A stretch of DNA of 64,000 bases from Asterella californica (Eukaryota > Streptophyta > Marchantiopsida > Marchantiales > Aytoniaceae). The notes under the pieces are model-generated. The model searched no databases, was not told the origin of the DNA, and saw nothing but the letters and a program-made list of their open reading frames with translations. The translations under genes and the position numbers were made by a program. Positions 10,401-62,852 of the stretch are shown here, in pieces. How positions within the stretch are numbered: the stretch's first letter is position 1; each line of letters opens with the position of its first letter. Where the stretch lies: positions 9,486,001-9,550,000 of the forward strand of contig JAYKYS010000011.1 of the NCBI GenBank assembly GCA_036924285.1, given 5' to 3'.

Positions 10401-10785
10401 CAGGCTCAGTGGCTGCTAACTCCATCTGCTGTCGTGAATCAACAGGTAACTGGGTCGCCACTGGTTTCACCTTCTTCGCTACAGTTTTGTATTTGGTGTG
10501 AACCTCTGCTTCTTCACGAGAGCCACACCAGCAGATTGCATCCTTCCATCCACTCTCTAGTCTCGGATGAGGATGAGATTGCAAACACGAGACAACCTCC
10601 TCATAGACTTTACGAGAGTGGATAGGGATCACCACCCTCCCTCCCATCTGCTCCATCAACTTATCTACATCATCCAGCCAACGAACAAAAGACTGTACAC
10701 CTACAAACTCCTCGTAAACACCAGAAATCATCTCATCTTCACTCAGAACTCTTGTACAGCATAGATTTGCTGCACACGTCTCCAT
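7500..10785 (-). pseudogene. Pol of element A: RT, RNase H, integrase (broken)
   Basis: Frames 10785-9136, 9109-8312, 8308-8075 and 8027-7677 join end to end when aligned to pol of element D. Seen in order: a linker ending VKPVATQLP; RT with SSRWFTVPKK, DLFSDYDQFQLA and the catalytic FLDDIPMKGC; RNase H (VVLTVDT, ELWGAVTAMK, ETDCLPLLGM); integrase zinc-binding HDTLWAGHRG..CLHC; and part of the DDE core (DRGEL). A stop at about 7677 (VGD, stop, then VLVYDST) replaces the tryptophan of D, after which the C-terminal RKFSRRWFGPY region still reads in frame. The shifts near 9110-9136, 8310 and 8028-8075 make it non-functional. Confidence 0.88.
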
Positions 10786-10851
10786 CTGCCTAAGAAGCAG
10801 AAGACTGCACGAAGAAGTGTTGATCTACTTCCACATCACCTAGCTTCACCC

Positions 10852-13115
10852 TCACGTTAGGACAAGCGCCGTATAACTCACCCTTCTGGTTGTTTGCCGC
10901 TCGTAGCACCCAACCATGGTTAAGTTCGATAGACCACTGACCTCTTTCGTACACCTCTCATGACATGATGTTGACTCTGAACCGTGATCAACCAAAGCAG
11001 CAACAGGTTCCAAACTCCCAAGGCGAACTCGTGTAGCAGTCGTAGCACGAGCCCAGTGTCTCTTTCTGAAGTCGCTATCAGTAGTTGGACTCTCGTCGCC
11101 AGCTTCTTCATCATCAAACTCTGCAGTGTTGGTACCAGCAACCAACGCTTCTTGCTGATACTCTGTATCAACAACCTCCTGAAAATGCACCTTTCCGAAC
11201 TCTACATCATTCATAGAAGCTCCTACCACATCTATCATTTGGCTTTCTACCTGCTCGGACATCACCTGTCTCTTGCGCTTGATGATGTCGATGATCAGTT
11301 CGTGAAACTCCCTCTTTGCAATACCAAGAACTTTCCAGAGAGAAAACTCGATTCGTGCATCCAGTATCCTCTGCTCCAAGATGCTCTTCAGATCAGTAGA
11401 AGTTTCAATATCAGCTGCCAACTTGTAAGCCGGTCCCTTCTCTTTTTCTTGGGCAGTAAACCGCCTACCAGCAGTCGTTGGCTCCTGCTGGGATCTCTGC
11501 ACGTCCTCCATCGGACCTGGTGCAGATGGAGGAGCCGCAGAAGTAGAAGAGATGTCTTCGGGAGGAGCTGCTCACCTCCTTGTGACCCTCCGTCTATCTC
11601 CAGTCTCTTCTGGAACTCCAGTATCAAATTCAGAGGCTTCTCGCCGCCTCTTCTCCTCCACAGAAGCATCCTGCCAGTGAACGTGTCGATCCACGTCCAA
11701 GGATGCTTTGATAGACGTAGCATCAACAGGATCTCCCCACCCTGTGACCCTACGGATAGTTTCTGCTCCTCTCTTCAGTACTTCAGAAGGAACTTGGACA
11801 GGTCTCTTCTCAGCAGTCCTATCTAGCAACGTAGGACTAGAAGAAACTTCAATGTGACCGGCATATACATCAGGATTTACCGGTGATGTCATCAATGCAT
11901 GTACAGTTGCAGCAGCTGTAATCTGAGGTAGACTCCTCATGCCTCCTCGTCCAAACTGCGTGCTTAGCGGCTCTCCAGTAGAAGAAAGGTGCAGCCTACC
12001 GTTCTGGTAGCGAACCACACCATCTCGCAGAGCAGCCGTGAGCTCTTGACAATCTCCTCGGAAATGATCTTGACTGTCACACCAGATACATCTACGAACA
12101 GGAGCACCTCCTGGACGTGCAGCAGCAGACGCCGGCAGCTGCTCTCTCTGCAATCCAGCTAGCTCCACCTTCAGTTCTCTTATCTGCCGAATCAGGTCTT
12201 CGATCTGGTTCTGCTATCCATGGTTCTCCGCAGGTCTCTGAATCGGTGCCCTCTGTGCTGGAACTGGCACAACTGACATCAAAGGAATTGCAGCCGGGAC
12301 AACAGGTCTAGGAGCCGGAGCAAGAGCCGGAGGTTGTTGTACTTGAGGAGCAGTGCGAGGTTGAGTGGTTATTTCTACAAGCGGACGTCCTCCCACAGCC
12401 ACTCTTCCCCTCCTCTGCCTCGTTAGTACGGCAACAGCATCCTCGACTCTTCTCCAATCAGTAGTAACTCCTCCTTCAGCAGATCGATCGGTCAACATAA
12501 AGCACAACCGATCTACCGTAGCATCATCGGTAGCTTGCAAGAAAAGCTCGATTTTCCTAGCATCTAAGGTTATCCTCTCAAGAGTTGAGAGTTGTCGGTA
12601 TCTTCGATCAAACTCTCTCAGCATCTCATTCAGATTCATCATACGACCAGGTTGCTGCTCAACCCAGTCTAAGAACGTCCTCCTAGTAACTCTCTTTGAA
12701 TCTTCTTCGAGAAACTCTTCTCGAAGAGATCGCTCGAAACTCATCCAGACACTTAGATTTCTTCTTTGTACATCCCTAACTTGGTCCCGCAACTCAGGAA
12801 TGACAGCTAACTCAACTCATACTCACGCAGATATCTAGAAATATCTCTACCTTCAAATCTACCGCATCTATTCATAATTGCTTGCAAAGCCTTAGTAGAC
12901 TTCAACTCACCCCCTCCAATGATCGGATGTTGTTGGACCAGGGCCGCAAGTGTCTTCAGAATCTCAGCCGTATCCAGACCAGGTGCAGATGTCGTTGTAG
13001 CCGCTAGTACTACAGAAGAAGCTGTAGTAGACGCAGATGCAGCATCCGTAGAAGTAGCAGCAGTAGCGCCCTTGCGATCCATCTCTTCTTCTTGAAGTAA
13101 ACTCAACCTTCTCAA
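10852..13115 (-). pseudogene. Gag-protease of element A (broken)
   Basis: Frames 13115-12807, 12792-12214, 12168-11572 and 11511-10852 together align with the gag-protease of D. The N-terminus is alanine/threonine rich. A deletion joins LREYE directly to the block that in D reads LAVIPEIR and shifts the frame near 12800. The zinc knuckle CIWCDSQDHFRGDC is at about 12097-12056. A stop near 12214 and another shift near 11572 follow. The protease region shows ALVDHGSES, where D has ALVDHGSEI, and then runs into altered sequence (CHERCTKEV). The pattern is neutral decay after insertion. Confidence 0.85.
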
Positions 13116-33239: not shown

Positions 33240-34027
33240 AGAAAATCACCGGATCACCGGCTTCTCGGAGGCAGTTGCCGCCAACTACTTATTTTCACAC
33301 GCGCACGCCGACGTCCATAACCGTCCATTCCCAGTCATCTGTACGAGAGAGTGAAGCTCAGTACGCCCGGCCGGTTCTCTGTCAGAGCACGCTTGAATGC
33401 AGAGGAAATCGGGCCCGTGATGAGGGGACAGCGAAGGCGATGAAATGAGGCGTAATCTCGATCGACTTCAGCAACTGACATCGCATTGACTCGGTTGCAA
33501 GTGCACATCTGATACCACCCGTGAATCCACATTTTCGGCTGGGTCGAAGTGAAGGGAACCTGCAAGAAAAGTCTGCCGCACTTCCACTGCTTCTTTTCTT
33601 CTCTAGGGCTCCCCCGCCCAACCCCTCCTCTCCTCTCTTCTCTTCTCTCCTTCTCTCCTCTTTCCTTTTCTCGGCCCGCTTACGGGCACCACATCGATTC
33701 GTGGTCTCCTCCCTGTTGCCCCGGAGGAACCCTGAACAACACCTGCAGCGATTGATTCTTTCTTTCTTTCTTTCTGGACAAATTGCAAATCTGTTCCGGC
33801 CTTCATTTTTTACAACGATTTTTTGGCACCAACATTGACTTGGTGCTCTTAGGGAGCGAGGGAGAGAGCGGAGGGAGGAAGGCAGGCAGACTGGGCAAGA
33901 CTAGCGATTAGGGTTGGTTGGAATCGATTGAGAATTTGTGGATAGATTGCTGAAGACAGGTGTGGAGGAGTGACGACGAGGAGAGATTGGTATCTGATGC
34001 AGGCAGGGGAGAGGATTAAGACCTCCT
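33240..34027 (+). promoter_or_regulatory. Promoter and 5' leader of the MOS1-like gene
   Basis: Composition changes sharply from AT-rich repeats to GC/CT-rich unique sequence at about 33240. A long CT tract (33595-33670) and a TTTC run (about 33757-33775) precede the start codon, typical of plant 5' leaders. An ATG at 33997 opens a frame that overlaps the main start in another phase (to 34227). The transcription start and any leader intron cannot be placed from sequence alone. Short frames here are not conserved proteins. Confidence 0.55.
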
Positions 34028-37000
34028 ATGGCTCGCGCGTCCAGCAGCAGCACCAAATTTGCTTCTGTGAACCTCAACAAATCCTATGGCAAACCGGCAT
34101 CACAAGGAGCGCAGCTGCCGAGTTCGGGTTCTTCAAGGTCTCGGATTGCAACCCATGGGGGTATGCTGTTGCTCACCCGTCCGGTGCGCTCGCAGCCAGC
34201 AGCCGCTGCAGTGCAGAAGGGCGCTAAGTTGACAGTGCCACGGCCCGTTAATCTCCCTTCTTTGCGAAGAGAGCACGCGGGAAACGACCCGACTATAGCT
34301 TTGGTTGGGGGCACAGGAGCTTCGGGTTGGACGAAGCAACAACTGAAAGAGGCTGAGGAAGCCACTGTAAGCCCATTGCCTGGAGACAGCAACGTTGTAG
34401 TCGCAAGATCAACTCCAGCTCTGAGTGCGGGATCAACTTGGGGAACTTCTCAACCTCCTCCAGGTGGGCAGACTGTAGTGAATCCTCCCTATTTTGCTCC
34501 CGTTAATGGTGACTTGCGGCCCTCATCATCGCCACAAACGGTTGTAAGATCTGGGGTTTACACACCACCCAGGGCCAGAACAGCGCAAGCTAGTGCGTCC
34601 CCTGCTCCAGGTCCACCAGCGATCGCAAAAGCTGTGGTGTTGAGAGGAGAAGATTTTCCAACACTTCAAGCAGCTCTTCCACCACCTCCAGCTCCCCCGC
34701 AGAATCGGCAGAAGGAGCTTCAGCACAAACAGCGGGCTAAGCAACAGGAGCTCAAAGATCAACACGAGAAACTGCAACAACTTTCCCAGAAGCACCCGGG
34801 AGACGAGCCATTGCAACCGCAAGTAGCTGGCCCTCAGCTGCAGCCATCACAACCCGTATCGTTGCAGCCCAAGCGGGAGCAACCCGTGCAGAACTTGCCT
34901 AAAGAAGCTGCTCCGTTCTCTGAACCTCAGCCTGTGGGACAAGTGGGAAGTAGGCTAGGATTAAAGTCAGACGGTCCTTCTTTGTATGGGCCAGTCCTTC
35001 CGAATCGGGTGAATCAAAGATCAAACTGGACGGATGACGAGCGAGAACCTGCACAGAATCTTAGGCCTCAGGGGGGCTCTGGACCATACTCTGAATGGCC
35101 TGATCGGTCCGATAGAGAGCGACCCGATAGGGAGCATTTTATCGAGGATTCACGGCGTGGTAGTCGCACTGAGGACTATGGGTTTGGGCGGCAATCGACT
35201 CAGAGGGAGATGCAATCTTCCTTCGGCCCAGGCGGTCGAGAGGGTGCCTACAATAGGGAAGGCGAGGGGATCAGAGAAAGTGCATTCGTTTCTGATGGTG
35301 GCTTCGCAAGAGAAGGTAATTTCAATTCTAATCTCAGTTTCGATAACAATAACAGAGAAGCTGCGTATAGTAGGGAGGGAATGGGTAGCAGGGATGGCTT
35401 CATGGGAAGGGATGGAGGCATTCCTAGAGAAAGAAGTCATGGGAAGGATGGCGGTTATGGTAGGGAGTCTGGCGTGACAAGAGATGGAGGATTTGGGCGG
35501 GAAGGAGGATTCGGCAGACATGGAGCTTTTGGGAGGGATGGAAGCGGGAGAGAGTTTGGGTCTGGCAAAGATAGAAATTTGGACAGAGATGGCTTCGGCA
35601 GGCCGAAGAGTGGGGGTAGGGACTTCAGTGACCGTGAAGGGTTCTCTTTTAGGGAAGGATTTGGTAAGGATACTGGACCCAGAGATGCATTCAACAGGGA
35701 TGCTAGCTACGGGCGTGATATTCCTAGTCGAGACGGTCCTTATATTAGAGATGTTAGACGGCCACCAGCTGGAGAGTATGAAGGAGGCCGTGGCAGATAT
35801 GGAGGAGAAAGATTTGGTAGAGGTGCATCAAGCAGATACGACGGAGTTCCAGATTATGGAAGCAATAAAGCCAGCCATTTTGCCTCTGGGCGAGGAATCA
35901 TGGCACTTGATGCTGGTCTGGATTTCAGCAGGGATAAACGCTTCGGGGTGCCGTATAGTGAAGACTCGTTTGCAAGGGATTTTCCTGATCTTCCTAGTCT
36001 GGATTTTAGGGCTTCCTCAGGTCTTGGTATTGAAGCTCTTGGTTTAGGTCTGGAAGGCAAGCTTGGACGGAGGAAGAAGGAGGAGTCCAGGGATAATGAC
36101 TTCCGTGATCCCGAGAGAGAGTCATTTGAAGCGGAGTTGGAGAGGGTTCAAAAGGCCCAAGAGCAAGAGCGCCTCAGGAAAATTGAAGAGAAGGAGAGAG
36201 CCGTTGAAATGGCAAGGAAGGAGCAAGAGGAGCAAGAGCGTCTGGCAAGGGAGGAAGAAGAGCGGCAGCTCAGACTAGAAGAAGAAGCGATAGCTGCAGC
36301 AAACCGAGTAGAACAAGAAGCCCTTGAGGCAGCTCGAAAATTTGAGGAAGAGCGTAGAGCTCGGGAAGAGGAGAAGAGGCAGATACAGTTGGAGGAAGAG
36401 AGGAGAAAGGAGAACGCTCGACGCAAGCTTCTGGAGTTGGAAGAGCGAATAGCAAAGCGGGAAGCCGAGAAGAAAAAGCAGGACGCGGAGCCTTCTCCCT
36501 TTTCCGAAGATGAGATTTTTCGTGGCCAGAGAGCAGAGGAGGAGGAAGCTGCTATCAGCAGAGATGATGCAGCCAGGGAGGAAGAGGAGCGCATGGTCGC
36601 CAGTATAACAGAGGCTGATCAGGATGACGACGATCGAGCGCCTCTTAGACCATCTCGGCGTCCACCTTCTCCATTCATGCCTAGATCCTCACAAGAGGAA
36701 TATCCTTCTCGTGTTAAGTCCCCTGATGTGCCGCTTCCTTTACCTGCACGGCGCATGCCTGATCTCAGAGGTGGAAATGCGTTTGAACATGATCGGTCGA
36801 GGTCCTTCATGTCGTGGAGAAGAGATTCGATGGAGAATGGAAGCGGTCCTTCGCAGTCTTCTCTTTCTGGTCGTGAAGAAGGAAGTGAGTTTGCGTCCAG
36901 CATGATCAGAGATCGTATGTATGGTGCGAGAAACTACGGAGAACGGGAGACGTTTTATGGGAGTCCGAACATGGGTTTAACGTCAGAAACAGGACCCGGA

Positions 37001-40000
37001 GATTTCCCTTTGCGGAAAGAACGCACTCCGGGCTACCAAGAGCGAAGATGGGTGTCGGAGGAAGCCGGTTCATCGAATAAGCGGTCTGCATCGCCCCGAG
37101 CTACAACTCCTGAAAGAGACGGAGGTTATTCTGAGAGTTCTTACGACAGAGACGGAGATCGGCATTGGGGCCGTGATAAAATAGACCGCCGGCGCCTTAG
37201 AGATGGACAGCGCGTCTCCCCTCCTCCTCCTTCATATTTTCAAGGGTCTGATGCACTGGAGTCTTCTTCTTATGGTGGCCGGTTACGACACTCTTTTGCC
37301 AAGCAGCCACGAGTACCCCCGCCATTAAGGGCACCTCTTCTCAGACCTCCTCTGAAGGCCCAGAGGGATCAGTCCAACAGTTCCCCCTCTCCTTTATTGC
37401 ATCCCGTTGGTGATGATGATAGGGCTTCATGGGACCAGGACCAGGGACAGGACACCCAGCGTGGCTATTCTGGTCACCCTCTGTCTAGATCGCAGCAGGC
37501 GGAAAGATCTCTCATCCAACCGGAGCCTGGGCATGGAGGAAGTCCTTATAGCGCTGAAATGTTTGAAGGAAAGTCCTGGCAGGGACCCTCGTCGGCCTCT
37601 CTGAGGCCCCAGCGTGGTCAATCTCAGCCTTCGAAACTGCAAACGGAGTCGCAGGATGAAAAGTCAGACGAGCCGTCTGGTAGCATGGAGCAGGAGCCGT
37701 CATCTGCTGAAGATGATTCTTCTGTAGCTCCTGGATCTCCAGGAAGCCATCATGATGGAGATGATGAGGTAAGTGGAGAGGAAGCCTTGCCTTCAGGCGA
37801 GAGGGTTGAAGAGGGAAAGTCAGGAGAGGAAGGAGTCGCCTACAGAGAAGATGACGAGGATGCGGAAGATGAAGGAGAAGATGAGGAGGACCAAGAAGAA
37901 GGCTTCGACGATGAAGAAGAGTATACTGCTGGTGGGTGGGAGGAGGATGCGGACCAAGAGGTTGAGAAATCTGAGGTTATCAACGATGACGGAGGAACTG
38001 TAGACTTCGATAGTGAGGAATATGAGTCAGGTCCTCAAGAAGGTAAAGTAGAGAGTGATAGCGAAGTGGATTCTCGTGACTACGGGGAGAAATCCCCGGG
38101 GGGAGCGGAAGAGTCTGTAAGTACCGTAAAACAAGGGTTTAATACAGCCAGTGAGCAGAAGGAGCCACCAAGAGATGAAGCAGCCGATGAAAGGCTCCAA
38201 CACGATGGGTTACAACAGTCAGTGGCGCAGCCATACCTGCAGCAGGCTACCCTTCCATCTGCTTCCACACCCTTGACTCCAGCGATAGCGGTGAATGTTG
38301 CGTCTGGTGAAAGCTTTGACAAGAGACAATCTATCCTATCACAGCTGCAGCAACCATTGTCTTTTATGGCTTTGTCGTTGCCACCTTCCCACGCTGCAGT
38401 TGCCCCAACTCAGGTACCTTCGGCGGTCCTGACCTCCTTGCCAGTACTTCACAATGCACATGAGGGACCTGTTAGCCTCCAGTTTGGACTCCTGCCGAGC
38501 ACATCCCTTGTGCCGACATCAGTACCAGCCATTCAGATTGGGTCCATTCAAATGCCCCTACATGTGCATCCGCAGGCTGGACCTCAGTTTACACCGCTAC
38601 ATGGACCTCCAACTCCACTGTTTCAGTTTGGGCAGCTGGGCCATCAAACATCGGTACCCTCGTTTGTTCACCCTTCTCCTGTTTCTCAGTCCTTGGTGCA
38701 ATCACAGATTGGACAACTTGCAGAAACACAGTCTAATGGTCCCTCAACTCAAGGAGCACCATCAGCGTCTTCTCAAGAGAAGGACCAAGTTGTTGCTGTC
38801 CAGGCTGAGATTCATGGGTCGGTTCCTTCCGCAGATGCACAATGGTCCGGCCAGACTAGTAAAAATGCAGCCGGGGGATTCAAGTCCAGTGAACTAGGTA
38901 CTAACGAAAGCAGAAGTGGCGGAGGGAGTGCACTGCGTCCAGAGCGGAGAGGTCGTGAGAGGGGTCCTCGAGAGGTGATTCCCCAGGGGGTTCAGTCAAG
39001 TAATTCTCAAGCTAAAGCTGTACAACTTGTAGGTTCAGAGGGTGCTTTGGAATCATCATCCTCAGAAAATAGTGTTGTTGCAACTGTGGAGCATAACGTG
39101 GAGAGCAGTCAAGGTGGCGATAATCCATGGCAAAGACCATATTCAGGTGGGAGAGGTAGAGGTAATTCTACAAGGTGGGGAGGCTCGGCCGCCAGAGGTA
39201 GAGGTAGAGGTAGAGGAGCACCTCATGGTAATTCAGAAGGTTATGGTATAGCCGCGAGTAATCACGCACAAGATACAGGAGTTGACGGAGGGCTGCTTCG
39301 AGCAAGGTCCGGACGTCGGAATTCGTTTCGACGCACAGAATTCAAAGTGCGAGAGTCATCCTTGCAAGGTTTTCCAGAAGGCACAGGATCAGCAAAGCCT
39401 GCTGTGAGAGATAAGTATGCGCAGGTGTCTGGTTGGTCTGATGGATCAGTGCCTTCTGCTAACTTCAGTGATGGTACTGCTAATAGGGATAATTATCGGG
39501 ACTCATCTTCGCATATTCACGACAAGTACTATGGGGAAGGTGTAAGCCGCCAGTCACAAAGTGCTTTGGGGAAACTCGAGAGTTCTGGGAGCAATGAAGG
39601 ACTTCAAAAGCATGGAAGAGGCTCAGGGTATTCTGTATCTCGTCCTGCAGAAGGCGTGCTGGGTAAGTATAGTCCGGAGGTGGGTTCTGAATCCTCCCTA
39701 CAAAGTGGCGTAGGCCAACCTTATGAGCAGTCAGGAGCAGAAGCTCCTAGTGATGAGGATGACTTTATTGAGGTCCGTTCCAAACGCCAGATGCTGAATG
39801 ACCGACGAGAGCAGAAGGAGAAGGAGATGAAAGCAAAGACAAAGGATCTGAAGGTACATCAGTTTGAACTTTTTCTATGAACCGAAATTTATTTCCTTGT
39901 TTTTCTGCTGAAACCGGCTCGGAAACTTTTACTCTCAGTATTTCTTTGTCAACCATGTAATTTCCAAGATTCTGTCTCAGGCTAAGGAGCAGGCTGCAAG

Positions 40001-47788: not shown

Positions 47789-47881
47789 GCTGAGCTGCCT
47801 GCTGGTCCTAAACTGCACTGCGCCCTGTTTGAGATTAACGGGGCAGGGCGCAGTGCAGTTTAGGACCAATGGCAGCTCAGC
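47789..47881. repeat. Large near-perfect hairpin (38-39 bp arms)
   Basis: The arm 47789-47827 pairs with 47844-47881 with only a small bulge/mismatch near the middle (CAGCAGGC against CAATGGC); the loop is about 16 nt. A 93-nt foldback of this quality fits either a small TIR foldback element or a young plant small-RNA precursor. The sequence does not decide. Confidence 0.85.
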
Positions 47882-48057: not shown

Positions 48058-48189
48058 TATACGAGTCAAATACATATGACTTGTATTTGAAGTCAAATAC
48101 ATATGACTTGTATCAATCACGTCAATCACGTCACGATTGACGTGATTGATACAAGTCAAATACAAGAGGTATAGATTATACACCTCTTG
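48058..48189. repeat. Palindrome cluster left of the Rep island
   Basis: Two direct copies of AGTCAAATACATATGACTTG-type sequence (48064-48112), a 23-bp perfect hairpin (48105-48127 with 48135-48157, loop 7) and another AAGAGGT..ACCTCTT hairpin (about 48164-48188), stacked without spacing. It is adjacent to the 53-bp repeat at 48228. Confidence 0.8.
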
Positions 48190-48227: not shown

Positions 48228-48280
48228 TGTTGAACATGGTTCATGCATACTAGTTATAAATAAATAATAGTGGATATTCA
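48228..48280 (+). repeat. 53-bp direct repeat, left copy
   Basis: Starts TGTTGAACATGG and ends GGATATTCA. It matches 51481-51533 at 51 of 53 positions by eye. It could be the element's terminal repeat or part of a surrounding repeat family. Confidence 0.85.
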
Positions 48281-48296
48281 GAGCACCTGCATATTC

Positions 48297-48324
48297 ACCT
48301 CCTCCATCTTGCGATGGAGGAGGT
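48297..48324. repeat. Subterminal hairpin of the Rep island
   Basis: ACCTCCTCCAT (48297-48307) pairs perfectly with 48314-48324. Preceded by GCATATTC. The same wording occurs in the hairpins near 51594 and, shorter, at 31235. Confidence 0.85.
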
Positions 48325-48348
48325 CGGCCAGATTAATTATTTTTTCCT

Positions 48349-48447
48349 CTTTATTTACTGCCTTCTGCTTCCTAGGGCCACGTCTCCGGATTTAAACGTC
48401 TCTATTTACTGCCTTCTGCTCCCAAGGGCCACGTCTCAGGTTTTCTT
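48349..48447. repeat. 57-bp tandem repeat, two units
   Basis: Units at 48349-48390 and 48406-48447 share CTATTTACTGCCTTCTGC followed by GGGCCACGTCTC. A third, weaker start (CCATTTACTGCG) is near 48526. It lies between the left hairpin and the 3' end of the Rep gene. Confidence 0.75.
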
Positions 48448-48887
48448 TACTCCTTCCCTCCTGATTCATTTATTCAATTACTCCGTTCCGTTTGCAGGGG
48501 CCCCATCTTAGCATTCATTCCCCTTCCATTTACTGCGTAAGGGTTCCAGTCGCTTCATCGCGGGACTAAACTTAATACCCAGAAGGAGCTACCTCCTGCG
48601 ATTAAAACAGAGACCGTCTTGCTGAGCTGCCGTCTCGTCTCCGACTACTTCCGAAACAGCAGTAGATAATTTTCTCGCTTGACGCTGAGTACAGTTTCAG
48701 AGTTTAACAATTGGCAGAAAAAAGGCCACGGTGGACCACAAACTTTATTTCCACACGAAAATATTTACATTTCTGCAGAAACATCGACAGACTCCTACTG
48801 CAAGATCTTCGACGCACTGCAGTTATTATGCACTAGTCTTCAAAACTGTTTACATGTACTATCTGTCCTAGCTGAACACAACACACA

Positions 48888-50514
48888 TCAAACTAAAATC
48901 GGCTCCTCTACTTCGAACGTCCGCCCTGCATCCATACGCCTCAAGAAGGCACCCAGCAGCGGTATATATTCCGTTGGTTCGGTGCCGGCAGTCCCCATGC
49001 CAGTGTCTCCATCAGCAGAAGCATGGATGTCTGCAAAAGGTACCTCCCGATGCTGTTCAGCAACTGCAACAGGCGGATCAGTCCAACTATCCCCCTCGGT
49101 GTACCTCCTTCTACACTGCCCACAACGCCTATTGTCCTGCCAAAAGAAGATGTTCTGAACATCTTCTGCAGTGACTTCAGCAGGGTGCAAAAATGATTTC
49201 CACAGAGAATCCAGCCTTCGTTCCTGCATCCCACCCTGAATGAGCCAACGAGGAGAAGCGCTGTACTTCCCAGAAGTTAGCATGGTCCTCAAACAAGTAC
49301 GGATTGTAGTAGACAACGGATGAGAGTTCCTGTACTTATTAAACTGGAGGGCCCTGGCAAGTACATTCGCATAAGTCAACTCAACACGATTTTTCGTATC
49401 CCCAGCGCCTAAAAGAACATACATATCCTTGCCATCAGTCAGCATGCTCTCAGAAACGTTCTTCATCGTCACATGGTGATACTCCTCCTTCTGATCCTTC
49501 ATACAGTAACCGAGCATGCCAACATAGGTGTGCAAGCCACGATTTGTTAACGACTTCACACAAACCTCAGCACCCAAAGGTTTCTCATGCTGCCAACCCA
49601 AAACTGCCACAAGCCACTTCTTAACCTGCGGACAGTTTTTCGCATGGATGCACACTACCCCTTGAAAGTGCAGATGAAGTAGAGCGCCCCCCCGCTCGAC
49701 AGAAAACAAACCCGAAACACAGTGCTTGTCCAAAAAAACAGCCAACAGCGAGAAAAGTTCCAAGTCCAAATCCCCTCCTGTCCTGCAGACAGTAATTGAC
49801 ACCTCAAGACTTTTCTCAGGAATCGACGCATTGGTCTTCCTCGCTCTTGCCTCCCTTCGTAGAAACATTCAGACGAGATGCGTGAGGGAAGTGAGGGCAA
49901 ATGTACCTAAAGGTCGACGGGTCCAGCACAACACACACACAAGGCAAAGTACGCAGTCTATAAATCGCCCGTACTGTAGGTTTGAACAAGTTCGCGCTAT
50001 AACAATCAATGAAACTACTAGGGTAGGTAAACATCTGCAGGTCTGGACCTTGTAGCACAAGCCAATATGTATCCTCTGTGGTGCCTAAGTACATGAAAGG
50101 CCCGGATGTAGCCGCAAAGACACGAGCTACTTTGACAAAATCGCCGTCAAGAAGGAAGCGTGGAATATGGTCAGAGAACTGAAGATCTAAGTACACATAG
50201 AAGCGGTGTGCTTCTAACCTCCGATCATCAAATCCTTGGTGGACGACCTCATCCAACGTAGGAAAGATAGGAGGGCAACCTAAGGGTATGTACAGATAAT
50301 CTTCCTCGAACCCGGACGAATCGGTAACAGATATCTGAGGACTGACAGCACGAACAGGAGCCTCAGGGCTAGAAGAAAGAAGAGGACTTGCTTGTGCAGT
50401 GGAACCAGGAAGAGCAGTAACTCCGGAAACAACAGTTGTTTCACGAGCAGCAGCGTTATCAACGGTCTCGAACGTACTCATCATCGAGCCAAACAACACA
50501 ACAGTAGAAAGCAC
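48888..50514 (-). CDS. Rep protein with HUH/Y1 endonuclease domain (two predicted exons)
   Basis: Two frames, 50514-49816 and 49868-48888, overlap in different phases. A 52-nt GT..AG intron at 49906-49855 joins them exactly in frame, giving about 524 aa. The first exon (about 203 aa) has an S/T/V-rich start and an unrecognised domain (YLYIPLGCPPIFPTLDEV). The second has a strand ending SITVCRTG (HUH motif-1 position), HLHFQG (H-hydrophobic-H metal site, residues 65-67 of the second frame) and YVGMLGYCMKDQ (catalytic YxxK, Y121/K124), then a helical region and a CGQC pair (C249/C252). HUH proteins nick one DNA strand and stay bound through the tyrosine. No SF1/SF3 helicase motif was seen. The start codon could be at 50514 or 50484. 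Confidence 0.75.
49855..49906 (-). other. Predicted 52-nt intron in the Rep gene
   Basis: Minus strand begins GTACATTTG at 49906 and ends ACGAAG at 49855. Removal joins TTT-AG to G-GAG-GCA and so links the two long frames. GTCTGAATG could serve as branch site. Alternative explanation: a +1 frameshift mutation. Confidence 0.55.
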
Positions 50515-50559
50515 GAAAAAAGAAAAGGATACGAGTCCAGTATGTGTACCTGTACACGG

Positions 50560-51300
50560 CGAAACTGCTTACTTACAGGTGCCAGAAGTGAAGGTGAAAA
50601 CACGCAACAAAATGACAAGACATGACAGCGGCAACCTGTAATGCCACCCGGACGACGAAGGGTATGTTCGTCTGCACCGCAAACGCGAAGACCACGGCCT
50701 GCAGTCCACAGCCAGCATGACCGCCATAACCCACCACCTCGCTGCCGCACACAGAGCATGCATGGCCAAGAGTCGAAATAGAATTCCGAACAGCGGCAAC
50801 AAAGCACGTTCTCAATTCCGTCACAGCACGCCTGGAATTCGGCTGCAGGACCAAACGGATAAGCAGCGGCAGCACGCTTCCAATTCGCCCGCACGTCCTA
50901 GCAAGAACAGAAGGAAGCTGCGGCACCAACACGAGCAAGCAAACCGAGGTTTCCAATTCGCCCGCACCGAAGCCTATCCCAACATCAGCAAACCAAGAAG
51001 AGAACCAAGTAAACCGAGCAGCGGCAGCACGTTTCCACGAGCGAACCTGCCGTGATCAGTACAGCGAGCCAAAACACCCAAGCAGCAGCAGCAAATTCCC
51101 AAGAACACGACCACGAACAACAAAGCCGCGGCAGCGAAGAACGCAGACTCAACAGCAAGACCGCCACGAAGTGCCGGGCAGTGAACGGCAGTGAACGGCA
51201 CTGAACGGAGGCGGGATGAAGCAATGGTCACACGAACGACAGCGAACGGCGGCAGAAAGCAGAAACGGCCAGGGCGCCGTAATAAACTCCCCGAGCCTTT
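50560..51300. repeat. GC-rich upstream region of Rep with scattered direct repeats
   Basis: TTCCAATTCGCCCGCAC occurs at 50878-50894 and 50951-50967. An AGCAGCGGCAGCACG word occurs at about 50862 and 51018. A GTGAACGGCA 10-bp unit is repeated in tandem around 51181-51208. Frames on both strands here (for example 50894-50481 minus) look random. Probably the 5' regulatory region or binding-site array of the Rep element. Confidence 0.6.
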
Positions 51301-51440
51301 AATGCAACTTGTCCTTTTGAATAAAACGTTTCTCGTTTACCACTACTCCCTCTTACCTCTACCGGACCCAATGAAAGCTGTTAATTTCCACCCGCAACCG
51401 CCGGTTGTCTCTTTCCTCGGGCTGCCGCGGCAGTCCATCA

Positions 51441-51645
51441 GCATGCATATTCATCCTTTTCTAAGTTCGGATATTGTGCATGTTGAACATGGTTCATGCA
51501 TACTAGTTATAAATGAATAATAGTGAATATTCATCTTTTTCCAAGTTCGGATATTGTGGTGGTTCAGCACTTTGAGGATATTGTGGTGGTTGAGCATGCA
51601 TATATTCACTTCCTCCGTTTTTCATGGAGGAGATGAATATGCATG
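51441..51645. repeat. Right end repeats of the Rep island
   Basis: Contains the 53-bp direct repeat (51481-51533). A second-order repeat (ATATTCAT, then CTAAGTTCGG or CCAAGTTCGG, then ATATTGTG) begins at 51447 and 51526, a GGATATTGTGGTGGTT pair sits at 51549-51590, and an imperfect hairpin runs from GCATGCATATATTCA to TGAATATGCATG (51594-51645). Confidence 0.75.
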
Positions 51646-53090
51646 AGTTTAAATTAAAGTAATTGTGAATAAATGTATAAACAGTATCAGGTTATCTGAC
51701 TTGTACCTTGGTTAGCATGGTTGTGTACTCATGCTTTATGGTTTATATCATGTTTCCAGGTATGGTTTAATAATCAATATCTATAAAAGATTTTAATTAT
51801 TTTCATCCGTTTGATATATAAATTTTATTTAACATCTATTTGTCTTTCGGTGTCATTAAAAGAACAAAAGTTCCCCAAAAATTATATCATGCATATCATA
51901 TTAGTTATGCATATCATATTAGTTACAAATAAAGGTTGTTCTTTCAAACCTTGATTATGATTCCTACAGTTAGGAAGAATAAAGAGGAGCATGTAGAGCA
52001 ACTTTGGCAATACTTCTCAAGATATTCATTTTATCGTCAGATATAAACCCTAGAACAGTAAGACAGCTCAAATAACACAAAGGACTCAGTTAATGCAGAT
52101 AATAATAAAAAAGAGTACGAGGTTAGGAAAAATGATGATTAGTTTGTCTCCTGGAGAAACTGGAAGCAAAACGAGATAAGAGATAACTGATAATAAAAAG
52201 ACTGTGTTAAAAAGAAAGATTGGTTCTCGATCAAGGTGTTCATTGGGTCTTAGCTCTTCAAGTTATTTCGGTTTGAAAGGGATTTAGGAATATGTTCACC
52301 AACATATGATACACTAACCTTACTAGTAAGTGTTACAATTTGAACATAAGATATTCGATGGTAGATTGTATCAACTGAGACCAAAGAATATTCTCAAGTA
52401 TTGGGTAGTCCATAACATTCCATTGATTAGGCACTACATATTCACCTCTTTTGTAAATACGTGAATATGCACGGGAAAGATTGGTTACAACTCAAATCGT
52501 AAATATAAAAATGGGAACTATTTATTCACTAGCCATCACTAGTTTATGCTAGAGTCGAGGTGCTCCAAGTGTAAGACATCGCAGCGATTGAATCCTGATT
52601 TTCTTGTATGGGGGCTTGTAAACTTCTCCATGCCATGAGAAGAGAAGAATACCGGAAACTGAAGAATTTCTGTCCGAGACATGAAAGTGGCGTTGTAATA
52701 ATTATAGAGTTTGTTTCTAGTAGCTACAGGGTTATGTATAAATCTCTGAAGGGAGTGTGCTATATCATTTAAACCCTATCCTTCAGTGGTACATGCACCA
52801 TGTATACAATTTTCTGAATGTTAACGTATTTCTTATCAGTTAAACTTTTTATCTAAATAGTGGTATATTAATGTTTCGAGGCTAAACAACTGCACATCAA
52901 TTTCTAAACCTAAAAAAAATATAGAATGTGGCTTATCAATTTTCCAAACCTAGACAATGGTGGAGGAGAAAAGATTGATGGTTAATCTAATATAATGAAC
53001 AAATCTAATGAACTATTGAAAGTGCAAAAAGGGGAACAAATTTTATTCAACATTAATTACATGTTCTGTTTGTATAGCAGTTATTTACTT
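51646..53090. other. AT-rich repeat DNA right of the Rep island
   Basis: 51748-51915 matches the end block of the hairpin repeat family (TTTCCAGGTATGG, TTAAT.., AAGAACAAAAGTTCCC, ATCATGCATAT), also seen near 30530, 30830 and 32070. A worn ATATTCACCTC..GTGAATATGC hairpin is at about 52437-52472. No gene recognised. Confidence 0.5.
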
Positions 53091-57039: not shown

Positions 57040-57084
57040 ACGCTTTGAGGTGGTTGAGTGAGTTGTTGCCGAGGAGCGTCAAGT

Positions 57085-59403
57085 ATGAATCTTCCCGAAG
57101 CAATGGGGACGAGTGGAGGAGGAGCGGACGATCTGCTTCGAGCATTGACGATGTTGTTGAGACAACAACAAGGAGGCGATGTTGGGGAGCAGAAGTCTAC
57201 AAGAGCTCTACAAGCGGTGGTGAAGAAGTTGGGGAGGTTCGATGGAAGGAACATCACGAAGTATGTTCGGGAGTATATTTGTGAGATGGAGGTAAATCGT
57301 GTGCCTGAGGCAGAGATGATTTCTAGTTTTGAGTTGGCTGTGATACCTGAGATCCGTAGTCAAGTGACAAAGCTGAAGGATGCACGTACGAGTTCTTGGG
57401 AGGAGTATGAGCAGAGGTTGAAGAGTGAATTTTTTGATGATGATGCGGATAGAGTAACCAAGAGAACGTTCTTGGAGTGGATAGAGCAGCGTCCAGGGAA
57501 TGAGATGACGCCAAATGAGTTGCTGCGTGAGTTTGAGAAACGGTTCTGTCAACTGTCTCCATCCGAGAGGACAACGCTTGACTTAAGGAAGACAAAACTT
57601 TTTCTAGAAGCTGCTGATGGAAATCTAGAGGATAAGCTTTTCTTGATGCTAGCAGACAAGGGGGAAGAAGGAGGAGTGAGCACAGACTGGAGAAAGGTAG
57701 AGGAAGCTGTTACTATTCTCACGAAGCAGAAACGTGGAAGAGGTAGAGCTGCAACCTTGAGGTCTGATGTCTCTTTAGCTCCATTGCCCAAGCCTGCCAA
57801 TAGCAAGATTGAAGATTCTGCAATCGATGAGTTGGTCAAGGGTCTGAGAGAGTTAAGGATAGAGATGGCAGAGCTAAAGCATAGTCGAAGTCCTGGTGAT
57901 ACCAATGCATCTTCAACTAGCAGAAATTTTGTTAGAAGATGTATCTGGTGTGACAGTACTGAACACCAACGACGAGATTGTGAGGAGTTTTCCGAAGCTC
58001 TCAGAACCGGAGTCGTGAATTTTAGAGATGGAAAGATTCATCTCGCCCAAACTGGTGCGCCGTTGAATACCAACTTTGGTAAGGGAGGAATGAAGAGTTT
58101 GGTGAGAGGTCAGGTTGGTATAGCTACGGCGATACGCACAATAGAGCCAGAAACGTTTGCGATTGAAGTAGATGTACCAGTTGTAGCAGCTGTTAAGAGC
58201 GATGTAGTTGAAGTTCCACGAGAAGTAATGTTGCGAGGTGCGGAGGCAATTCGTCGCATTACTGGATGGGATGATCTTGTAGAGGCAGGGTGTGTCAAGG
58301 CTTACTTGGTGCAAGAGAAGCATGTAAGCTGGCAAGATGCGATTGTGGAAGAGAAAAGGAGACGTGATGATGATGTTGCTGATCCGGAGGAGGCTACAAG
58401 GAGAGCCAGAACCACGAAGAGGAGAGGGCAACAAGAGACATCACCGTCAGATATCCCTTCGACGTCTCAAGGAGCATCTACGTCTGAACCTATGGTTGAT
58501 GTTCCTATTTATGACACGGAGATGAGAGAGAAAGACAAAGGAGCTTCTTCAAAGGGCAAAGGTAAAGCACCGACCTACAGACTACAGTCTGATATCGAGA
58601 CCAGCACCAACTTGAAGGAGATTCTTGAAGAGAGAATTTTGGATGCAAAAATAGAATTTTCCTTGCGAGAGGCCTTAGGGATAGCTAAACGTGATTTTCA
58701 TGAGTTGATCATAGATGTGATCAAGAGAAAGAGGCAGATGACTGCGGATACAGTGATGGTGAAAGCATTGGATACTGACATCACTGGGGAAGAAGATGAA
58801 GAGTTAGGTCACGTATTTGCCCAAAAGCATGTACTACATGCGTCGAATGGAAGAGAGGCAAGAGTTTCAGACTGTGCTGCAGAACATGGCGACGAGAAGC
58901 AGCATGAGAGTCACTATTCTCGAGCATATTGGGCTCGTGCAACCACAGAGACAAGGGTCCGACTGGGTAACTTGTCAGAGGCTATAGTGGCGTTGGTGGA
59001 TCACGGTTCGGAGATTAACATCATGTCCAAAAATGTTTACGAGAAGGAGAAGTGGCCAATCGACACAGGACATGGATGGGTTCTTCGTGCTGCTAACAAC
59101 CAAAGAGGTGAACTTTTTGGTGCTTGTCCAGCTGTCAAGACTCGGATAGGAGATGTAGAGATAGAACAAAACTTTTTTGTTCAGAGTGTAGCTGCTTATC
59201 CTGTGATCCTTGGTCAACCGTACATTACTGCGTCTAGGATGGAGACGAAAGTAATGGACGATGGGTCTCATTATGCTCGTATCAGAAGTCAAGATGGTAC
59301 AAGAGCGGTACAGTTTCTTACTGTACGTACGGGTCATGAAAGGAACAGAGAGAAGCTGAGGGACAGTCCCTTAAGGACTGACAAAGAGTTTTCGGATTTT
59401 TAG
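57085..59403 (+). CDS. Gag-aspartic protease polyprotein of element D
   Basis: 772 aa from the ATG at 57085 (a GTG at 57058 is an open upstream codon but not a likely start). Order: an acidic/glycine start, capsid-like helical region (residues 60-230, with WEEYEQRLKSEFFDDD and RTFLEWIEQRPGNEM), K/E linker, zinc knuckle C286-C289-H294-C299 (CIWCDSTEHQRRDC), a second helical region, and the aspartic protease with ALVDHGSEINIMS (D639) and VILGQPYITASRMETK. The gag part forms particles and packages RNA; the protease cuts the polyprotein. DHGS instead of D(T/S)GA is normal for this lineage, since A has it too. It ends at TAG, overlapping the pol frame. Confidence 0.88.
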   Translation: MNLPEAMGTSGGGADDLLRALTMLLRQQQGGDVGEQKSTRALQAVVKKLGRFDGRNITKYVREYICEMEVNRVPEAEMISSFELAVIPEIRSQVTKLKDARTSSWEEYEQRLKSEFFDDDADRVTKRTFLEWIEQRPGNEMTPNELLREFEKRFCQLSPSERTTLDLRKTKLFLEAADGNLEDKLFLMLADKGEEGGVSTDWRKVEEAVTILTKQKRGRGRAATLRSDVSLAPLPKPANSKIEDSAIDELVKGLRELRIEMAELKHSRSPGDTNASSTSRNFVRRCIWCDSTEHQRRDCEEFSEALRTGVVNFRDGKIHLAQTGAPLNTNFGKGGMKSLVRGQVGIATAIRTIEPETFAIEVDVPVVAAVKSDVVEVPREVMLRGAEAIRRITGWDDLVEAGCVKAYLVQEKHVSWQDAIVEEKRRRDDDVADPEEATRRARTTKRRGQQETSPSDIPSTSQGASTSEPMVDVPIYDTEMREKDKGASSKGKGKAPTYRLQSDIETSTNLKEILEERILDAKIEFSLREALGIAKRDFHELIIDVIKRKRQMTADTVMVKALDTDITGEEDEELGHVFAQKHVLHASNGREARVSDCAAEHGDEKQHESHYSRAYWARATTETRVRLGNLSEAIVALVDHGSEINIMSKNVYEKEKWPIDTGHGWVLRAANNQRGELFGACPAVKTRIGDVEIEQNFFVQSVAAYPVILGQPYITASRMETKVMDDGSHYARIRSQDGTRAVQFLTVRTGHERNREKLRDSPLRTDKEFSDF

Positions 59404-59462
59404 TTAGCACTCCTGTAGAGCGGGAGTATGGGAGTGTTGATAGGAGAAAGAGCCTTCCGCTA

Positions 59463-62400
59463 GTGCCAGAAGATGAAGAAGAGATGTTTAAATGTGGATT
59501 TGCTCAGTTTTCTGAAACATGTGTAAATAGATTTCGAGTGGTAGAAGAGATGGATAGTGTACAAAGACAATGTGTGAAGAAGCAGGAAGATCTCTTCAAA
59601 ACTCAAGGAGTTCTGTTAGATCGGGAGTTCATTAACGGGGTGTATGAAGAAGAGGGCTTTGAAGATACTCTTGAGGAAGTTTTGTCGTTTATAAGCACCG
59701 ATTCTTTGGTTAATGGATTAGTCACGATCCGTTCACGTGAGTTACATGAGGAGATTACAAGATTCGTCGAGGACGGCTACAAGGTTCAGCTTCAGATGAA
59801 AGGAGATCATGAGTTGGAGTTAGAGAAGAGTAGAGCCATGAAACACCAAGAAGCGCAGGTTCATACAAAATACAAGACGGTGGCGCGTAAAGTGAAGCCG
59901 GTGGCTACTCAGCTACCTGAAGACTCTAACAAGCAAGTGGAACGAGCATCGACTGAACCAGTTCTGCGGGATTCACAGAGAGTAGGGCACAGGTTCACAG
60001 AAGAGACACTCAAACGACTACAGATTGGAGGGGGTGAGTTTCTCACTGAGGAAGAGAGAAAGCGTTTTCATGAGATGTTGAGAAGGCATGGAAAGGCTTT
60101 TGCTTTCAGTGCAGAAGAGATTGGATGTGCAGATACGAGTGTCGTAGCACCCATGGTGATCTTCACAGTACCACATGTGCCTTGGGACTTGAAGCCTATA
60201 CCAGTGCCACGAGCTATGTTGCCAAAGCTTGTGGAATTGTTGAAAGAGAAGATACGCATGGGTATTTTAGAGCCATCTATGGGACCTTACTCGAGTCGGT
60301 GGTTTACTGTACCTAAGAAGTCAGGGGCTCTTAGGTTCATCCAAGACATGCAACATGCTAACAAGGTGACTATTCGAAACATGGGAGCAGGACCCATAGT
60401 AGATGAAGTTGCAGAAGCTTTTGCTGGTCGTGCTATCTACTCGATTGGAGATTTATACTCTGGGTATGATCAGTTCCAGTTGGCAATGGAGAGCAGAGAT
60501 CTCACCACCATGCGTACTCCGCTTGGGCTTGTAAGGATGTGTACATTACCGCAAGGAGCGACAAACTCTGTTGCGCATGTGCAAAATGCAATGAATAGGA
60601 TTTTGAGAGAATTCATTCCGGAGAAGACCATACCTTTCATAGATGATATTCCTATGAAAGGGTGTGCGGTCGAAGACAAAGATGAGAAGCTGACTGAGGA
60701 TGGATGTCGAAGGTTTGTGGTTGATCATATTCACGATGTGGAGATGATCTTAACAAGGCTTGAGGAGGTAAATCTCACTCTTTCAGCAGAGAAGTCGAGC
60801 TTTGGAGTACCAGAGATTGTTGTTGTTGGTCATCTTTGTGGAGCTTTTGGTCGACGTCCAAACCCATCAAAGGTTGATGCCATTGGGAGGATGAAAGATT
60901 GTGTCAACACCACAGAGGTTAGGAGATTCTTGGGAGCTTGTTTGTTCTATCGAGTGTGGATTCCTCATTTTGGTCACATGTCTGAACCGTTGTATGAGTT
61001 GCTGAGGAAGCGAAGGAGGTTCACTTGGGGTGAGGAGCAGAGGGTCGCTATGGTGCGACTAAAAGAAGCATTGAAATCACCACCAGTTCTACGACAATTG
61101 AGCTATGATTGTGGTAGACCCATAGTCGTTACTGTTGATACTAGTCCTATCGCTATAGGTTGGGCAATAGGGCAGGATGATGGTGAGGAAAAGAGGTTTG
61201 CAACAAGATTTGGTGCTCGCATACTTTCGGATCGACAAAGGAGATACCCTCAAGTCAAACGAGAGCTATGGGGCGTTGTAACTGCAATGAAAGCTGAGAA
61301 GGAGTATCTCATTGGAGCACATGTACTACTTGAAACTGATTGCTTACCTCTGTTGGGAATGATAGCAAACTGCACAACGCCTGATATTGCTATGTTACGT
61401 TGGATAGCTTACATTAGGTCGTTGAATCCAGAGTTGAGGCACATAGCAGGGAAGATGAACTCGATGGCAGACATGTTGTCTAGAGCTAGGTACTCTCAAG
61501 AAGAAGATATGGAGGCGGAAGATATGGATGAAGATGATGCAGAGGAGGGGCAAGTTCTACAACTATCAAGCGAGGACCGGAGTCGCTTGGATGGTGTTCT
61601 TCCTTTCAGGGAAGAACTCTACTGTGGGAGGCTCAAAGAAATCGGACGCTATCTAAGCACTCTTCAGAAGTATGAAGAATGGACGGAGAAAGTCTTCAAG
61701 GAGATACGACATCAGGCCTATGGCTATCTATTACGAGATGGATATCTGTGGAAGAGGCCAAAGAGGAGAGATGGAGTACCCTTGAGAGTAGTGGATGATG
61801 CAGAGACCAAGAAACAAGTACTCGAACAATTTCATGATACCTTATGGGCAGGTCATCGAGGTACATGGGCGACCTTTACCAAGATCAAGGAGAGGTATTG
61901 GTGGAAAGGATTGTATCGAGATGTAGAGAAGTTTGTTGGGTCATGCATTGAATGTCAATTCCAATCCAAGATTCGGTATAGGGATGGATTGAGACCCACA
62001 TATCCCTTGTCCATTCATTTCCAATGGGTTTTGGATCTGGTTGCCATGCCACCAGGAATTTGGGGCATGCGTCATTTAGTTTTGGCTCGGGAAGAGCTAT
62101 CTAACTTTGTAGAAGGGAGGGCTCTACGCACCAAAGCTACTGAACCTGTCTGTCGATTCATACTAGAAGATATCGTTTCTAGATATGGAAGCGTGGGGAG
62201 AATCCGTGCAGATAGAGGAGAGTTGAATGCAGATGAAGCACGTGAGTTCTTCAACAGGTATGGAATACGATTGAAGTTGACCACTTCGATGAACCCGGAA
62301 GCGAATGGGAAAAGTGAACGAGGGCACCCACCAATCATCCAAGCATTGGTGAAAGCGTGCAAGGGGCGTCATGGGGACTGGCCTAGACTTCTTCCTTTTG

Positions 62401-62852
62401 CGTTGTGGGCTGATAGAACTACTCATAGTACTGTCACTGGTTACATGCCTACAGAACTGATGACTGGTCAAAAACCTATCATGCCAGCGGAAGGAGACGT
62501 TCCTACTTGGGTATGTCTACCTTGGGAGGATGGTTCTGATAGGGAAGGACTATTGACACTACGAATTCAGCAGCTTGAGCGACGTGAGGAGGACCTCGAA
62601 GAAGCATTGGTCAAACTCAAGGAGGCGAGGTTGAAGAACAAGGAGCGATTCGACAAGACACATCGACTGCGGAAGAAGCCGATCCGAGAAGGTGACTGGG
62701 TCATAGTATATGACAACAGTTTGGATAACCAACACAGCACTATCAAGAAGTTTGCACAGGAAACTGCTCCGGCAGCCTCTTTGGGTAGTTGGGCCCTTGA
62801 CTCTCCTGTCGTTTCCTCGTGCGAGATAGACTTATTCTGGAGAGCTACGTGA
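59463..62852 (+). CDS. Pol of element D: RT, RNase H, integrase (C-terminus replaced)
   Basis: 1129 codons, open upstream to 59382; first ATG in frame at 59484, but expression by -1 frameshift from gag is likelier. RT: SSRWFTVPKKSGALRFIQD, DLYSGYDQFQLA, LPQGATNSVAH and catalytic FIDDIPMKGC. RNase H: VTVDTSPIAIGWAIG, KRELWGVVTAMKAE, LETDCLPLLG. Integrase: FHDTLWAGHRG with CIEC (zinc), core aspartates in WVLDLVAMPPG and RADRGEL, and the E in NGKSERGHPPI. After YDNSLDNQHSTIKKFAQ the family continues RWFGPY (seen in A). Here it switches at 62757 to unrelated residues and stops at 62852, so the C-terminal integrase tail is missing. The catalytic parts look intact. Confidence 0.85.
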   Translation: MPEDEEEMFKCGFAQFSETCVNRFRVVEEMDSVQRQCVKKQEDLFKTQGVLLDREFINGVYEEEGFEDTLEEVLSFISTDSLVNGLVTIRSRELHEEITRFVEDGYKVQLQMKGDHELELEKSRAMKHQEAQVHTKYKTVARKVKPVATQLPEDSNKQVERASTEPVLRDSQRVGHRFTEETLKRLQIGGGEFLTEEERKRFHEMLRRHGKAFAFSAEEIGCADTSVVAPMVIFTVPHVPWDLKPIPVPRAMLPKLVELLKEKIRMGILEPSMGPYSSRWFTVPKKSGALRFIQDMQHANKVTIRNMGAGPIVDEVAEAFAGRAIYSIGDLYSGYDQFQLAMESRDLTTMRTPLGLVRMCTLPQGATNSVAHVQNAMNRILREFIPEKTIPFIDDIPMKGCAVEDKDEKLTEDGCRRFVVDHIHDVEMILTRLEEVNLTLSAEKSSFGVPEIVVVGHLCGAFGRRPNPSKVDAIGRMKDCVNTTEVRRFLGACLFYRVWIPHFGHMSEPLYELLRKRRRFTWGEEQRVAMVRLKEALKSPPVLRQLSYDCGRPIVVTVDTSPIAIGWAIGQDDGEEKRFATRFGARILSDRQRRYPQVKRELWGVVTAMKAEKEYLIGAHVLLETDCLPLLGMIANCTTPDIAMLRWIAYIRSLNPELRHIAGKMNSMADMLSRARYSQEEDMEAEDMDEDDAEEGQVLQLSSEDRSRLDGVLPFREELYCGRLKEIGRYLSTLQKYEEWTEKVFKEIRHQAYGYLLRDGYLWKRPKRRDGVPLRVVDDAETKKQVLEQFHDTLWAGHRGTWATFTKIKERYWWKGLYRDVEKFVGSCIECQFQSKIRYRDGLRPTYPLSIHFQWVLDLVAMPPGIWGMRHLVLAREELSNFVEGRALRTKATEPVCRFILEDIVSRYGSVGRIRADRGELNADEAREFFNRYGIRLKLTTSMNPEANGKSERGHPPIIQALVKACKGRHGDWPRLLPFALWADRTTHSTVTGYMPTELMTGQKPIMPAEGDVPTWVCLPWEDGSDREGLLTLRIQQLERREEDLEEALVKLKEARLKNKERFDKTHRLRKKPIREGDWVIVYDNSLDNQHSTIKKFAQETAPAASLGSWALDSPVVSSCEIDLFWRAT

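Follow-up and report, generated by a model that had tools for sequence, protein, structure and literature searches.

The 64,000-nucleotide stretch of Asterella californica DNA analysed here (contig JAYKYS010000011.1, positions 9,486,001 to 9,550,000; referred to as the window) very probably contains a Replitron-type transposon of 3,171 bp, likely moved by a single-tyrosine HUH protein (Rep) and carrying an overlapping frame that is likely translated separately. The overlapping frame is open reading frame (ORF) 1; Rep is encoded by ORF2. Membership in the Replitrons is well supported by the Pfam family PF21859, by the protein motifs and by the ends of the element. The element belongs to this known class and is likely a new variant, not a new class. 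The positions of its features are summarized in Table 1.

Rep matches Replitron_HUH (PF21859) with an E-value of 1.1e-12 and 48.9 bits (cut-off 28.5). This bears out the initial annotation, which had proposed a Replitron-type HUH transposon. An HLH motif is followed by YCMK on the minus-strand frame where both motifs had been read; this is the HUH-Y1 order, with a single catalytic tyrosine accompanied by a lysine. All searches of the own genome were run on the 516.7-Mb assembly that contains the window. A DNA search gave 936 candidate places, and 40 of them were scored, including the window and two near-identical copies; the locus is thus multi-copy and not a single-copy host gene. Of the 40 loci, 38 retain the first H of the motifs, 39 the second H, all 40 the Y and 38 the K. 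A search with PF21859 gave 1557 candidates, and all 150 that were scored lie above the cut-off, while the family was found in none of 14 control genomes. With a profile built from Rep and two relatives from the database, 39 proteins were found; for 35 a PF21859 assignment was already precomputed, and one is from the fern Adiantum nelumboides. A plant host, as first supposed, is plausible. For window pairs with dS >1, the ratio of nonsynonymous to synonymous substitution rates (dN/dS), which disregards gaps and stop codons, lies at 0.07-0.13 in Rep and at 0.15-0.22 in ORF1. Judged by these ratios, both frames are under purifying selection.

Several results on Rep and ORF1 weigh against this assignment. 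The second Replitron family, Replitron_C (PF21860), stays under its cut-off in Rep (E-value 0.032, 15 bits, cut-off 27), and close copy pairs of ORF1 are near neutral (1.06, 0.70 and 0.65). The structure model of Rep is poor, with a mean predicted local distance difference test (pLDDT) score of 43.5, and no significant match to it was found among solved structures. Its best part, residues 20-120, matches common ferredoxin-like folds, among which HUH proteins are tied with unrelated folds; 9pqf and 7kij are such HUH proteins, and 2x3g and 2ec2 presumably are as well. The order of strands and helices in this part fits that of the HUH fold. No sequence match of Rep to a solved transposase of the IS200/IS605 type or to another solved HUH-Y1 transposase was found. 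As a separate observation, three same-strand HUH hits with identical score lie 33-36 kb apart at C81:5937276, 5970712 and 6006610 (G000), perhaps in a larger tandem duplication.

Ends, copies and target site of the element

Two copies in the assembly are nearly identical to the element in the window. The copy at C1:50.23 Mb is 99.8% identical over 3,168 bp. The second, at C52:4.02 Mb, is 99.9% identical over 2,736 bp and 100% identical over another 364 bp, and lacks 73 bp between these two segments. The matches break off at 48284/48281 and at 51451/51453, and the element was set at 48281-51451 because they stop near 48284 and 51451-51453 and because of the tail GGTGCTC. Within the edit limits used, a 5' end resembling AATATGCATGC is present in 34 of the 40 loci and a 3' end resembling GGAGGTGAATATGCAGGTGC in 23. 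The ends are not inverted copies of each other, and the repeat listing gives no inverted pair joining them; terminal inverted repeats are thus absent. A Pfam scan of 12 of the 19 element ORFs of at least 60 amino acids found no helicase, reverse transcriptase or DDE domain, in agreement with what had been noted before. The G+C content is 0.49-0.51 in the middle 2 kb and 0.34-0.43 in the adjoining kilobases. The GC-rich island described earlier therefore exists relative to its neighbours, but the window reaches 0.56 elsewhere. One point against the ends as drawn is locus L009, which is nearly identical to the window but carries another tail behind AATATGCA. Its 3' end shows AATATGCAAGTG twice in place of AATATGCAGGTGCTC, and in L019 the 3' unit is doubled too.

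Table 1. Features of the element and its target site in the window
Feature	Position	Strand	Basis or remark
Whole element, 3,171 bp	48281..51451	-	two 99.8% identical copies stop there; tail GGTGCTC
5' end of element, begins AATATGCATGC	51451	-	shared ends of copies
3' end of element, closes ...GGTGCTC	48281	-	copies and tail
5' terminal AATATGCA	51444..51451	-	
AATATGCA near 3' end (direct terminal repeat)	48288..48295	-	7 bp before 3' end
3' tail GGTGCTC	48281..48287	-	
3' subterminal hairpin, 12-bp stem, GCAA loop	48297..48324	-	fold and covariation
ORF1, 222 amino acids	49816..50484	-	conserved start, dN/dS, 2107 candidate genome places
ORF1/ORF2 overlap, 53 nt, +1 frame	49816..49868	-	
ORF2 (Rep), 326 amino acids, HUH endonuclease	48888..49868	-	PF21859 E-value 1.1e-12; dN/dS
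HLH metal-site motif (H65, H67 of ORF2)	49668..49676	-	
YCMK, catalytic Y121 and K124 of ORF2	49497..49508	-	
TG, 5' copy of 2-bp target duplication	51452..51453	-	
TG, 3' copy of 2-bp target duplication	48279..48280	-	
Interrupted target unit, left piece	48228..48280		remainder 51452-51480; not element
Matching part of adjoining uninterrupted target unit	51481..51533		not element

That the window copy is a dead relic of a family that no longer moves is rather unlikely. In most of the 40 scored loci at least one of the two ORFs is indeed interrupted by stops or broken in frame, as a relic would suggest. Against it, both ORFs are open in the window and in the C1 and C52 copies, which are 99.8% identical, and selection has kept both frames; movement was therefore recent. 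The element is likely autonomous.

The two 53-nt direct repeats that flank the element are 96% identical, as reported, but both lie outside its ends. They were rejected as element ends because the near-identical copies stop at 48284/51451; the repeats are target DNA, and the extent of 48228 to 51533 proposed at first was wrong. Originally two units of about 80 bp lay here, and it was the first of them that received the element. When the flanks are joined and aligned to the intact second unit, one surplus TG remains; the insertion in the window therefore duplicated 2 bp, within GGATG/AATATCC. No match of the 53-bp repeat beyond this locus was found in a genome search that skipped very common words. 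When 51454-51640 was searched against the genome, three places matched: the query itself, the left repeat and, elsewhere, a place that partly matches the palindrome 51595-51640. A general duplication was not established, which weighs against it as a property of the family: among 26 copies with both flanks the permutation p is 0.041, driven by L042, the only long duplication in this set (16 positions compared, one mismatch), and a 13-bp duplication in L036 is set back from the end. Two structures adjoin the target repeats. At 51596-51650 lies a near-palindrome (z score -5.6) whose plus-strand end GATGAATATGCATG resembles a Replitron 3' hairpin, and at 48101-48161, to the left, lies a 27-bp inverted repeat that is 96% complementary with 7 nt between its arms.

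Two overlapping reading frames

The initial annotation had joined both frames into a single intron-split gene of 524 amino acids with a Rep N-terminal domain of about 200 amino acids. Most likely, judged from aligned copies, there are instead two overlapping ORFs, the supposed intron being coding and Rep starting at its own ATG. What was taken for an N-terminal domain is more plausibly a separate ORF, conserved, overlapping that of Rep and subject to purifying selection. Of 41 aligned rows, 30 were used for codon analysis; ten decayed or indel-rich rows were left out, as was L048, which duplicates the window, and the counts of codon changes treat related copies as separate. Between the upstream frame and Rep, indels are nearly absent from the 41 rows. 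In the 30 rows, third-position variation of the ORF1 frame runs through the supposed intron to 49864, and the Rep-frame pattern is seen from 49860 on. Upstream of the ATG at 49868, 17 of 34 changes are synonymous in frame 1 (expected 0.25, p 0.0013), against 9 of 35 in frame 2 (p 0.51). Over the whole length of the supposed intron the excess in frame 1 has a p of 0.0041.

Distant relatives were compared by pairing all 150 listed HUH hits with 65 of the listed ORF1 hits. Ten adjacent pairs were obtained, and the offset is +1 in nine of them (seven of eight outside the window family); offset and gap length are one fact here, not two. In all nine junctions compared (eight outside and the window) a stop codon directly precedes the Rep ATG, and the first residues of Rep are M-F-L-(R/W)-R. 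The eight distant junctions form three near-identical groups, or four with the window, and are not eight independent cases. Five of seven readable distant relatives, from two of the three groups, lack a GT at the supposed donor. The preceding stop, the shared start of Rep and the missing donor together point to the Rep ATG itself as the most likely start.

A Rep gene split by an intron of 52 nt (or 61 nt), with ORF1 and ORF2 as exons of a protein of about 514-524 amino acids, is highly improbable. It first seemed supported because the aligned copies share the frame offset. AG/GTAC and an AG are in frame, a 52-nt intron gives 514 amino acids, and the donor G is kept in 28 and the T in all 30 window-family rows; this GT, however, also follows from the conserved codons AGG TAC. 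Both introns were rejected on the coding pattern of frame 1 and on the donor missing from five of the seven readable distant relatives, and the stop ahead of the ORF2 ATG also speaks against them.

The main rival to the own-ATG start is a +1 frameshift within a few codons at the start of Rep. Programmed frameshifting in the overlap, as in some retrotransposons, would give an ORF1-Rep fusion with ORF1 alone as a second product; this is decidedly unlikely, if less so than the intron. The +1 offset in nine of ten pairs, the short overlap and the sharp hand-over of codon constraint between 49864 and 49860 agree with it. On the other side, 28 of 30 rows retain the ATG, even though its T (49867) occupies a third codon position in frame 1 and neighbouring sites vary. 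Base 49860 varies freely (A5 G9 C10 T6), unlike a fixed slippery site, and the stop before the ATG confines any shift to a few codons at or after it.

Some details do not favour separate translation from the ATG at 49868. The ATG is TTG in one and a gap in another of the 30 window-family rows; the codon before it is not a stop in 15 (one of them a gap); and three rows stop in frame 1 ahead of it. One of the ten pairs has an offset of 2, its junction looking normal and an extra base lying further into the Rep frame. Within the overlap, constraint on frame 1 falls short of significance (p 0.28 and 0.41), and the end of ORF1 is therefore less sure. The first stop in frame 1 is at 49806 in 17 rows, at 49818 in seven, the window among them, and elsewhere in six.

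The start of ORF1 is conserved. A search of the own genome with ORF1 gave 2107 candidate places, of which 150 were scored. Outside this genome no relatives were found in the protein, Replitron-relative, PDB and Pfam searches: none of 678 candidates from 5.8 billion proteins reaches an E-value of 0.001, the best E-value against the 39 Replitron relatives, many of which are fragments, is 0.45, a profile search of PDB gave none up to an E-value of 1, and 16 members scanned against Pfam match no family above cut-off (two domains of unknown function, best E-value 0.024). The single-sequence model consists mostly of strands, with a mean pLDDT of 39.4, and gives no basis for a function. No two-ORF Replitron was found among the papers listed in the literature searched, a scope without the defining paper of 2023; ORF1 may be new.

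3' hairpin, shorter elements and possible insertion preference

The hairpin noted near the 48.3-kb end holds up, with a z score of -4.5 and one of 200 shuffles as stable. From 31 regions 16 hairpins were obtained; these regions include two duplicates of the window (L009 and L010), the window itself (L048) and two imperfect cases (L040 and L041). Covariation was measured on 14 of the 16, leaving out L020 and L047 (bulged, 8 of 12 positions paired); L012 is shifted in the alignment. In these 14 sequences 96.3% of cells are paired, a value reached by none of 500 shuffles, and nine of the 12 pairs have changed on both sides (two of 500 shuffles). Counting against a general role, 11 of the 31 loci show no such hairpin at the anchor used and three just an imperfect one.

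Searching with the 3' end yielded 388 candidate places; of the 40 that were scored, 36 match about the last 44 bp alone. When 1 kb was taken for eight of these short relatives, AATATGCATGC was found 279-341 nt before the end motif in six, at 459 nt in one, and as a variant in one. The exact 22-mer GGAGGTGAATATGCAGGTGCTC occurs 151 times genome-wide and its reversed control not at all. By sequence, the short elements with these 151 exact 3' ends are apparently a non-autonomous Replitron family resembling miniature inverted-repeat transposable elements. Loci L049-L076 are elements of about 300 bp with the Replitron 3' end and a 5' AATATGCATGC, too short for Rep.

Junctions were read at 28 of the 36 listed short-element places. 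The tail GGTGCTC is present in all 28, the search query itself having contained it. The bases that follow are T20 G24 A24 A21 T14 A18, and NGAA follows in 19. Genome-wide, NGAA follows 63 of the 151 exact 3' ends, against about 2.4 expected from equal bases. The other 88 lack it, and the bias is therefore a preference or a partly inherited tail; the target unit in the window contains AATAT, which favours a target preference. Some insertions sit at the hairpin end of another copy (L017, L056 and probably L013).

Related motifs were observed elsewhere in the window. A short inverted repeat at 52435-52471 carries TGAATATGYA on both strands, and TGAATATGCA-like sites are enriched (17, with 5 expected). 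On the minus strand, hairpins at about 31290-31225 and 30390-30330 are followed by GTGACAATGCA and GTGATAATGCA, respectively, possibly 3' ends of other Replitron-related short elements. Apart from these, retrotransposon-like coding regions lie at 8312-12816 (minus strand, with reverse transcriptase) and 57058-62852 (plus strand, with reverse transcriptase, RNase H, an integrase zinc domain and DUF4100). An open frame of 1960 codons at 33998-39880 (plus strand) has no Pfam match; its start presumably resembles plant MOS1-like proteins. A perfect 25-bp inverted repeat with a 16-nt loop lies at 47803-47868. No Rfam family reached its gathering score in the window.

Comparison with known systems and proposed mechanism

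Replitrons were reportedly defined by Craig in 2023 in PNAS. A passage of a review gives their length as 0.9-4 kb, their direct terminal repeats as 5-11 bp and their target duplications as 2-8 bp (PMC10741241). The element resembles them in its HUH domain above cut-off, its length of 3.17 kb, the 8-bp direct terminal repeat AATATGCA, the lack of terminal inverted repeats and of a detected helicase, and the 2-bp duplication at this insertion, which is not general across the 26 copies. It differs, as measured against that review passage and Pfam and not against the defining paper, in a conserved ORF overlapping Rep in the +1 frame, in the covarying 3' hairpin and in the TGAA/AATA bias.

Helitrons have the ends 5' TC and CTRR 3', whereas the element begins AATATGC... 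and closes ...GGTGCTC. A Helitron was rejected on these ends, on the single tyrosine and on the lack of a RepHel helicase domain in the ORFs scanned. Many plant Helitrons carry an extra gene for single-stranded DNA binding, according to a passage in PMC4683698. Nothing ties ORF1, without a Pfam family above cut-off, to those proteins. With IS200/IS605 and other HUH-Y1 transposases the element shares one catalytic tyrosine, the HUH motif, a subterminal hairpin and recurring target bases. Hairpin recognition by HUH-Y1 transposases is described in a passage of PMC6006769. Unlike IS200/IS605, the element is eukaryotic, has two overlapping ORFs and lacks a sequence match to a solved member.

From these features movement may be inferred to be rolling-circle-like, with a nick before AATA. 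Rep, translated from its own ATG, would nick before AATA at the 5' end of the element and stay bound via Y121. The strand would come free close to the 3' hairpin, and a target starting (T)G-AATA, itself nicked before AATA, would be joined to the 3' end of this strand. Duplications between 0 and a few bp agree with such a mechanism, as does nested insertion. ORF1 may assist by handling or targeting single-stranded DNA, a guess by analogy. It is possible, if somewhat short of probable, that the element is a two-gene Replitron, in which ORF1, a new family, is coupled to the HUH Rep by the conserved +1 overlap. The pair would cut, in a rolling-circle manner, before AATA at its own 5' end and at TGAATA targets, and its own 3' end (GGTG-AATATGCA) would be a preferred landing site that seeds nested copies.

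The overlap is a warning to annotators, as splicing both frames yields a false fusion protein. As a class, Replitrons were recognized only recently. With full-length copies that are nearly identical, ends that are mapped, a hairpin that covaries, a 3' bias and a second conserved frame, the question of how Replitrons move becomes open to concrete experiments.

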